A stretch of 64,000 bases of DNA from Arenimonas composti TR7-09 = DSM 18010 (GTDB lineage: Bacteria > Pseudomonadota > Gammaproteobacteria > Xanthomonadales > Xanthomonadaceae): positions 186,001 through 250,000 of the forward strand of contig NZ_AUFF01000003.1 of the NCBI RefSeq assembly GCF_000426365.1, read 5' to 3'. The notes below the pieces were generated by a model. It was not told where the DNA came from. It was given only the letters and a program-made list of their open reading frames with translations, and made no database searches. Positions 53,876-55,816 of the stretch are shown here, one piece after another (the stretch's first letter is position 1; the number at the start of each line of letters is the position of its first letter). A program made the translations under genes and the position numbers.

Positions 53876-54822
53876 ATCGCCGCTCGTTGCTCCTGGCGAC
53901 CGTGCTGCTCGCCGTGGCGGCGGCGACCTGGCTGTGGTCACGCGCCGACACCACTCGCCCGGCGGAGGCCCCGGCCGAAGTCGCCGCACCGGCGCTCCCG
54001 CCGCCGTCGCGGCCGCTGCCGACGATCGCGCTGCCGGTCGTGCCGCCGCCGCCGGCGATTCCGACGCGCGAGACCGCCGGCGCGCCGCGCCATGCCGTCG
54101 CAGCGTTCTACAAGTCGAACCGGATGCTCGACCGCCTCGACGCGCTGCGGGACCTCGCCGACGCCGGCGAGCCCCGCGCCGCCTGCCGCATCGCCCGTCT
54201 GCTGCTGGCCTGCGGGCCGATCCGGAACCACGTGGCGTCCCTGCGTCCGCCGGGTGCTGTCGGCGAAACCCGGGGCGTGTCCACCGCGGCGACGGAACTG
54301 CGCGGCCTCGCGATCGAGTGCAGCATGTTCGCGAGCGATGCGCCGACGCTGCTCTCGCACTACCTGCGCCAGGCCGCGCTCGCCGGCGATCCCGAATCGA
54401 TGCTGCGCTACGCCGATGGGCAACACTGGCCCGAGGACTTCGCGCACGTCTTCGCCGACCCGGTGTTCGACGCCTGGCGCGCCGAAGCACTGCCGATGCT
54501 CGAACGCGCGCGCGCCGCCGGCATCGTCGAGGCGGTCGAACTGCTCGAGGCCGCCTATGCCCATGATGCGACGCCGCTCGCCGGCCTCGTCGAGAACGAT
54601 GCCGAAACCGCGATGTCTTATGCGCTGCTGCGCGCCCGTTTCGGCGGCCCGACGCCCGAGCAGCTTGCCGACGCCGCGGCGCAGCAACGCGCGGCGACCC
54701 GCGCCGAGGCGATGTACCGCCGCGATTTCGCCGGTGGCGGCACCCATGTCGACGCGCAGTCGCCGGTACCAGGCGCGCTCGATCCCGACAAGGAATCGGA
54801 AGCCTGCGGAGGCTTTCAGTGA
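53872..54822 (+). CDS. Four-cysteine envelope protein, paralogue 2
   Basis: The 316-residue product has a signal or anchor at residues 5-22, a Pro-rich linker, and the family blocks 'LADAGEPRAACRIARLLLAC' (C105, C114), C150, 'LRQAALAGDPESMLRYADG', 'FADPVFDAWRAEALPMLERA' and C312 near the end. It is translationally coupled to paralogue 1 (ATGA). After its TGA the same reading frame continues for 66 codons into a region that resembles the C-terminus of paralogue 4, which is treated as a separate remnant. The function is unknown. Confidence 0.8.
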   Translation: MNRRSLLLATVLLAVAAATWLWSRADTTRPAEAPAEVAAPALPPPSRPLPTIALPVVPPPPAIPTRETAGAPRHAVAAFYKSNRMLDRLDALRDLADAGEPRAACRIARLLLACGPIRNHVASLRPPGAVGETRGVSTAATELRGLAIECSMFASDAPTLLSHYLRQAALAGDPESMLRYADGQHWPEDFAHVFADPVFDAWRAEALPMLERARAAGIVEAVELLEAAYAHDATPLAGLVENDAETAMSYALLRARFGGPTPEQLADAAAQQRAATRAEAMYRRDFAGGGTHVDAQSPVPGALDPDKESEACGGFQ

Positions 54823-55023
54823 AGCGTCGTCAGCTTCGGCGAGGACACCGCGCCGGGCAGCCTCGACGCGGCCAGTCGCGCGCCGATCAACGCCGAGGCG
54901 GCGCGCCTGCACGCGCAATGGTTCGACAACCGCGTCCACACCGACGACGAGGCGCGGCGGCGCCTGTCCTGGCCTTCGCCGCTGGACGATTCGCCCACCG
55001 CCCGCGCGCCCTGCAGCGACTGA
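54823..55023 (+). pseudogene. C-terminal remnant of a fifth paralogue
   Basis: These 66 codons plus stop are in the same frame as paralogue 2, directly after its TGA. The block 'AARLHAQWFDNRV' followed by 'DDEARRRL' and a late 'RAPC' aligns with 'LAASMHARHFGDRVYSPDE', 'TTRLASGLVP' and 'RTPC' at the end of paralogue 4. No N-terminal two-thirds is present, and no start codon or ribosome site is apparent. The best explanation is loss of most of a tandem copy by recombination between paralogues. TGA readthrough cannot be ruled out but has no support. Confidence 0.7.
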
Positions 55024-55028
55024 TCCGC

Positions 55029-55034
55029 TACAAT
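55029..55034 (+). promoter_or_regulatory. -10 box for the riboswitch transcript
   Basis: TACAAT, preceded by CCGC, lies 22 bp before the first conserved riboswitch block. No good -35 is seen, as the upstream bases are the end of the paralogue remnant. Confidence 0.5.
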
Positions 55035-55047
55035 CCGCGGGCTTTCC

Positions 55048-55162
55048 CTGACTTCGGGGAGTAGCCCGGGCCGCCGCCAGGCGGCCACCGCGCGTCAACA
55101 CACTTGGCAGCAGCCATGGTGCGCGGGCCCTGCCGTCACGGCAGACGTGGGCAAGACCGGAG
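55048..55162 (+). promoter_or_regulatory. yybP-ykoY manganese riboswitch
   Basis: Conserved blocks appear in order: GGGGAGTAGC (55056-55065), a hairpin GGCCGCC/GGCGGCC (55069-55086), GTCAACACACT (55094-55104), a hairpin CTGCCG/CGGCAG (55130-55144) and the 3' block GGGCAAGACC (55149-55158). This is the yybP-ykoY aptamer, which senses Mn2+ and is known from Xanthomonas leaders. The downstream GGCCGGGG (55182-55189) can pair with CCCCGGCC (55220-55227) next to the GGAG at 55230, a plausible expression platform. It controls the UPF0016 gene that follows. Confidence 0.9.
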
Positions 55163-55240: not shown

Positions 55241-55816
55241 TTGAACGCACTGCTCGTTTCCACCCTCGCCGTGGCGATCGCCGAGATCGGCGACAAGACC
55301 CAGCTGCTCGCCCTGTTGCTCGCGGCCCGCTACCGCAAGCCCTGGCCGGTGGTCGCCGGCATCCTGGTCGCGACCCTGCTCAACCATGCGCTGGCCGGCT
55401 GGGTCGGCAATCTCGTCGCCGGCTGGATCGACCCGCAGTGGCTGCGCTGGGGCGTCGTCGTGGCCTTCGCCGCGGTCGCCGCCTGGACCCTGGTCCCCGA
55501 CAAGATGGACGAGGAGGGCGCGCCGAAGCCGCCCCGCTTCGGACCGTTCGTCGCGACCACGATCGCCTTCTTCCTGGTCGAGATGGGCGACAAGACCCAG
55601 GTCGCCACCGTCGTGCTCGCGGCGCAGTACGCGCCGCTGTGGCAGGTCGTCGCCGGCACGACGCTAGGGATGCTGCTCGCGAACGCGCCGGTGGTGCTGT
55701 TGGGCGCCCGCTTCGCCGACCGGCTGCCGCTGAAAGCCGCGCGCTGGACCGCGGCCGCGCTGTTCGCGGCGCTCGCGGTGTGGGTGGCGTGGAAGGGCGT
55801 GCCTGGCGCGCTCTGA
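55241..55816 (+). CDS. UPF0016/TMEM165-family manganese exporter
   Basis: The 191-residue product has six membrane helices in two halves, each with the E-x-G-D-K-T/S motif ('AEIGDKTQLLALLLA' near residue 13 and 'VEMGDKTQVATVVLA' near residue 111), the family signature. Bacterial members such as MntX/MneA export Mn2+ across the inner membrane. It starts at TTG 55241 with GGAG 8 bp upstream. The yybP-ykoY riboswitch in its leader supports the manganese assignment. The gene is flanked on both sides by four-cysteine paralogues, with no evident functional link. Confidence 0.93.
   Translation: MNALLVSTLAVAIAEIGDKTQLLALLLAARYRKPWPVVAGILVATLLNHALAGWVGNLVAGWIDPQWLRWGVVVAFAAVAAWTLVPDKMDEEGAPKPPRFGPFVATTIAFFLVEMGDKTQVATVVLAAQYAPLWQVVAGTTLGMLLANAPVVLLGARFADRLPLKAARWTAAALFAALAVWVAWKGVPGAL

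Follow-up and report, generated by a model that had tools for sequence, protein, structure and literature searches.

Directly behind the TGA stop codon of P2 (54820–54822), a gene of a tandem array in the window (the whole stretch of 64,000 nucleotides that was analysed), the same reading frame continues for 66 more codons (54823–55020, plus strand) up to a second TGA at 55021–55023. This raises the question of what the continuing frame, called the tail in the following, represents. The first-pass annotation regarded it as the C-terminus of a fifth paralogue that had been truncated by unequal crossover. The analyses described here indicate that the tail is very probably part of a pseudogene, the remains of a fifth gene of the array that was formerly located between P2 and the downstream GDT1 gene and was destroyed by an internal deletion.

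The gene array and its protein family

The window contains four full paralogues, all on the plus strand. P1 (52826–53875) and P2 (53872–54822) were recognized by the family profile hidden Markov model (HMM), and P2 is, according to the alignment, complete and has its C-terminal Cys shortly before the stop. P3 (55865–56878), located downstream of GDT1, was assigned by synteny comparison, and P4 (56875–57876) is, as judged from sequence matches, more similar to the tail than the other full-length genes of this genome. The paralogous proteins are approximately 29–34% identical and share a membrane helix, a Pro/Ala-rich linker, and an all-helical body with a conserved Cys; neither Pfam nor NCBIfam contains a model of this family. 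A sequence search of the PDB revealed no solved relative (nearest match E 0.04), and structure prediction from the four window proteins, which was of only medium quality (pLDDT 68), did not lead to a match with a solved fold. In the predicted model of P4 (mean pLDDT 68), helices extend over residues 2–25 and 78–292, mostly in the part that is missing from the tail.

Homology and extent of the tail

For homology detection a profile HMM was built only from the family proteins of relatives, without any window sequence. The tail matched model positions 272–326 of 331 with an E-value of 8.6e-8; when all six frames of the window were scanned with the same HMM, the best frame outside the family reached an E-value of 0.23. 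The residues quoted in the first-pass annotation, AARLHAQWFDNRV and RAPC, are present in the frame, so that its description as a family-type C-terminus of 66 codons holds. The alignment shows that the tail has kept an LDA segment and a helix ending in H-x-x-x-(W/H/Y)F or similar as family landmarks, and also the Cys just before the stop. Homology to the family is certain from approximately position 54853 onward. While a complete family protein consists of an N-terminal membrane helix, a helical body, and a C-terminal Cys segment, the tail encodes only the last helices and the Cys segment. Roughly one sixth of the protein survives and about four-fifths are gone, more than the N-terminal two-thirds estimated earlier.

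An independent small gene was considered and rejected. The tail frame has no start of its own (ATG, GTG, and TTG are absent from it, while ATC occurs once and CTG three times), and none of the relatives shows such a short gene; a conserved short gene with its own start had been named in the first-pass annotation as the observation that would speak against a relic.

The openness of the frame had been interpreted as a sign of either recent loss or readthrough. However, among random 198-nt stretches of the window, 58% are free of stop codons, and the tail region can be read without a stop in any of the three forward frames. Since openness is expected at this G + C content, the open tail frame is uninformative on both points. 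The chance of sharing the frame of P2 is one in three, and the in-frame position of the tail after the TGA is a coincidence. The G + C content at the three codon positions of the tail is still 0.71/0.61/0.94; according to the third-position value the decay need not be old. If the TGA were read through, the tail would be an extension of P2 and the product a protein with two C-terminal modules. The common frame and the still coding-like composition of the codon positions would agree with this scenario, but frame and openness are readily obtained by chance as outlined above, P2 already ends with the usual C-terminal Cys segment of the family, tandem C-termini were not found in the arrays of ten relatives, and the base after the TGA is an A, as correctly annotated before. 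Readthrough is therefore regarded as extremely unlikely. More generally, a fragment in high-G + C DNA can appear fused in frame to its neighbor, and open frames at such a base composition should be treated with caution, as they are no sign of recent loss or readthrough.

The same locus in other members of the genus

The locus was compared to ten genomes of the same genus, with no close strain or sister species among them. The gene order in the genus comprises a PDZ protein (contig permitting), two to four family genes, GDT1, a GGDEF protein, a nucleoside-transporter-like protein, and a PfkB-type kinase. The GDT1/UPF0016-family transporter gene (55241–55816, plus strand; Pfam PF01169, E 1.3e-44), whose identity to the homologs in most genus-mates is 73–81%, was used as synteny anchor. 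An intact family gene directly precedes GDT1 in nine of the ten genus-mates, at the place where the window has only a fragment. The first-pass annotation had recommended a search for an intact fifth gene in close relatives; in these genus-mates a family gene does occupy the place, and this result bears out the view that the tail is the relic of a fifth paralogue. The distance from the stop of the last family gene to GDT1 is 199–295 nt in these nine genomes; in the window, GDT1 is located 218 nt from the stop of the tail as compared to 419 nt from the stop of P2. Judged by its sequence context, the tail represents the 3′ end of the gene expected at the last array position before GDT1. In one genome (G015), the array is separated from GDT1 by two minus-strand genes, one of them TonB-dependent-receptor-like (L066, 4344–7617).

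Within its own genome, the only other convincing match of the tail is the C-terminus of P4 (41% identity, E 5.5e-4). P4 is also the best match overall, followed by G018_2, G011_4, G015_2, G002_4, G026_2, G019_3, and G022_4. Last-in-array genes make up six of these seven matches after P4 (hypergeometric 0.001, with several of the genes being mutually orthologous). Residue 8 of the tail aligns to residue 261 of the last gene product of G019 (318 residues), and both sequences finish two residues past the Cys. When 27 genomes of the genus were searched with the tail only, weak matches were obtained, the better ones of which were mostly last genes. Close relatives on the DNA level were absent from the plasmid collection, and a contig scan of genomes yielded one distant protein match. 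P2 is among the poorest matches of the tail, and a duplicated P2 C-terminus was rejected as its source for this reason.

These comparisons also bear on a partial duplication, by which the C-terminus of another gene (P4 or P2) would have been placed behind P2 without a fifth gene ever having existed at this site. P4 being the best match is in line with such an event, but the identity is low, P2 matches poorly, and it would be mere coincidence that the position and the spacing to GDT1 are conserved and that start signals occur at 54808–54821 (see below). A partial duplication thus appears unlikely.

Putative start of the fifth gene

The end of P2 reads GGAGG-CTTTCA-GTGAAGCGTCGTCAG and contains a Shine-Dalgarno sequence within the last codons of P2 (54808–54812, plus strand), six bases, and a GTG that overlaps the TGA (GTGA) and is followed by codons for K-R-R-Q. 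In relatives, the family genes usually overlap the preceding stop by 4 nt (ATGA or GTGA) and encode an M-x-R-R-type N-terminus, and both features are shared by the P1/P2 and P3/P4 pairs. The window contains 623 NTGA sites with an open heptapeptide. GGAGG is found at a distance of 4–10 nt in nine of them, a family likeness on the level of MKRRQLR in two, and the combination of both exclusively at 54819 (1 of 623), in a comparison that was devised after the sequence had been seen and rests on few residues. The most plausible reading of the GTG at 54819 is that the fifth gene itself started here, which would make the GGAGG its Shine-Dalgarno sequence and the GTG and first codons (54819–54834, plus strand; MKRRQ(LR)) its putative 5′ end.

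The frame beginning with this GTG has a length of 81 codons (54819–55064, plus strand). It resembles the family over about five to seven residues, beyond which it is out of frame and rich in arginine; 22 of the 81 residues are Arg, and no family match was obtained with it. The putative start frame and the tail frame are one base apart (54819 vs. 54823), which speaks against a biological meaning of the in-frame position behind the TGA.

Origin of the relic

According to the favored reading, a fifth array gene would have stood between P2 and GDT1, and an internal deletion, whose length was not a multiple of three, would have taken approximately 250 middle codons, corresponding to four-fifths of the gene. 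What would have been left over are five to seven codons at the beginning and 55 to 60 at the end, with the ribosome-binding site and the GTG on one side and the C-terminus on the other lying in different frames. A ribosome restarting at the GTG would then make an out-of-frame, arginine-rich peptide instead of a family protein, and the C-terminal residues encoded by the tail are probably not made at all. An internal deletion is proposed because both ends of the fifth gene apparently remain, with about 250 codons missing between them. With the junction located only to approximately 54835–54850 (plus strand), several smaller events may have taken place instead of one deletion.

The locus resembles bacterial pseudogenes formed by internal deletion, in which both ends are recognisable, the middle is gone, the frame is shifted, and the neighbors are intact. 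Nine genus-mates have an intact homologue in the same place, and in the window both ends are present (54808–54834, with a putative start, and 54853–55023) but lie in different frames. The relic is the same in kind as these pseudogenes, apart from the conserved promoter and putative riboswitch that border its 3′ end, and it represents an ordinary case of gene decay with a minor peculiarity on either side. The GTGA overlap with an internal Shine-Dalgarno sequence is reminiscent of termination-reinitiation, which is known at genes overlapping by 4 nt (PMC6728339). In contrast to such gene pairs, the downstream gene is dead here and a ribosome restarting at this site would be in the wrong frame.

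Unequal crossover between tandem paralogues, the mechanism initially assumed for the loss of the N-terminal part, would be consistent with the tandem arrangement and homology of the genes and with the variation between two and four genes in the arrays of relatives. However, such an exchange takes place between corresponding positions of two genes and produces a single full-length chimera, whereas here a fragment follows an intact P2. P2 has kept its own C-terminus in full and another one comes after it, a layout that does not fit breakpoints at matching positions of two paralogues. In addition, homologous recombination needs long stretches of identity, for which the only distantly similar paralogues (approximately 29–34%) are poor substrates. 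The start of the fifth gene also appears to be still present, and the order of an intact P2, the apparent Shine-Dalgarno sequence, GTG, and first codons of the fifth gene, and its C-terminus points to an internal deletion. Unequal crossover is thus decidedly improbable, and the locus may serve as an example of how internal deletion, and not crossover, reduces a tandem family.

Another scenario, which refines the internal deletion of a fifth gene more than it opposes it, is a duplication of the array-GDT1 block followed by complementary losses. The tail would then be the remnant of the last gene of the first block, and P3 and P4 would stem from a second block that lost its GDT1. Among the genus members examined, family genes between GDT1 and the GGDEF gene occur only in this genome (P3 and P4), a placement that suggests either a local duplication or a move of part of the array. 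Furthermore, P4 is the nearest kin of the tail in this genome, and P3, P1, and P4 form weak pairings in the tree with G019_1, G019_2, and G019_3, respectively. On the other hand, the likeness between P4 and the tail amounts to only about 41%, remains of a second GDT1 were not detected, and P3 and P4 could equally well have moved by another route. Resolution is poor in the tree of full-length paralogues, in which branches are long and many forks remain open; the tree was used only lightly and is too weak to show a duplication. A block duplication is a tentative possibility, and a less probable one than its absence.

The putative GDT1 promoter and Mn2+ riboswitch adjacent to the relic

A TACAAT motif located 5 nt after the stop of the relic (55029–55034, plus strand) is the putative −10 box of the GDT1 promoter. 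It was assigned by leader alignment; a simple scan detected neither a sigma-70 consensus promoter nor a terminator. The aligned box in the relatives is TATAAT (TATACT in G026), and in G011, G018, G020, and G022 the TAA stop of the last gene lies inside the TATAAT box, so that the upstream half of the promoter is situated in the end of the last gene. Downstream of the box, a putative Mn2+ (yybP-ykoY) riboswitch aptamer was located at 55044–55148 (plus strand; Rfam RF00080, E 8.3e-9) with 37.8 bits, below the gathering score of 45, and homologous leaders ahead of GDT1 in G002, G004, and G026 pass the Rfam gathering cut-off. Box and riboswitch are conserved before GDT1 in most genus-mates that have the array; the riboswitch was not found in the G015 genome. 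The downstream neighbor of the relic apparently has the established arrangement of a yybP-ykoY Mn2+ riboswitch and a UPF0016/GDT1 gene (PMC7380456, PMC6754395), with the difference that a decayed gene, and not an intact one, borders the promoter.

The 3′ end of the relic may have persisted since the GDT1 promoter abuts and presumably overlaps it, as deletion of the whole gene would be expected to remove the upstream region of the promoter. The location of a family gene 3′ end against the promoter of an Mn2+ riboswitch gene would be a simple and testable reason for the persistence of the relic. A more far-reaching scenario is that the relic has gained a second life, with its 3′ end providing upstream promoter elements of the GDT1 unit and reinitiation at the GTG disturbing manganese sensing. 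In that case, out-of-frame ribosomes from the GTG would reach position 55064, 20 nt into the aptamer, and on read-through transcripts array translation could interfere with the sensing of manganese. Such a role is considered highly doubtful.

Gene decay elsewhere in the family

A family gene of G010 (L061, 5870–6560, minus strand) is truncated at its 5′ end and lacks the first 128 profile positions. As its orthologue in G002 is intact, such decay recurs in the family. A TonB-receptor-like gene and a GGGGTCAGGTTCACTT motif are located upstream of the truncated gene.
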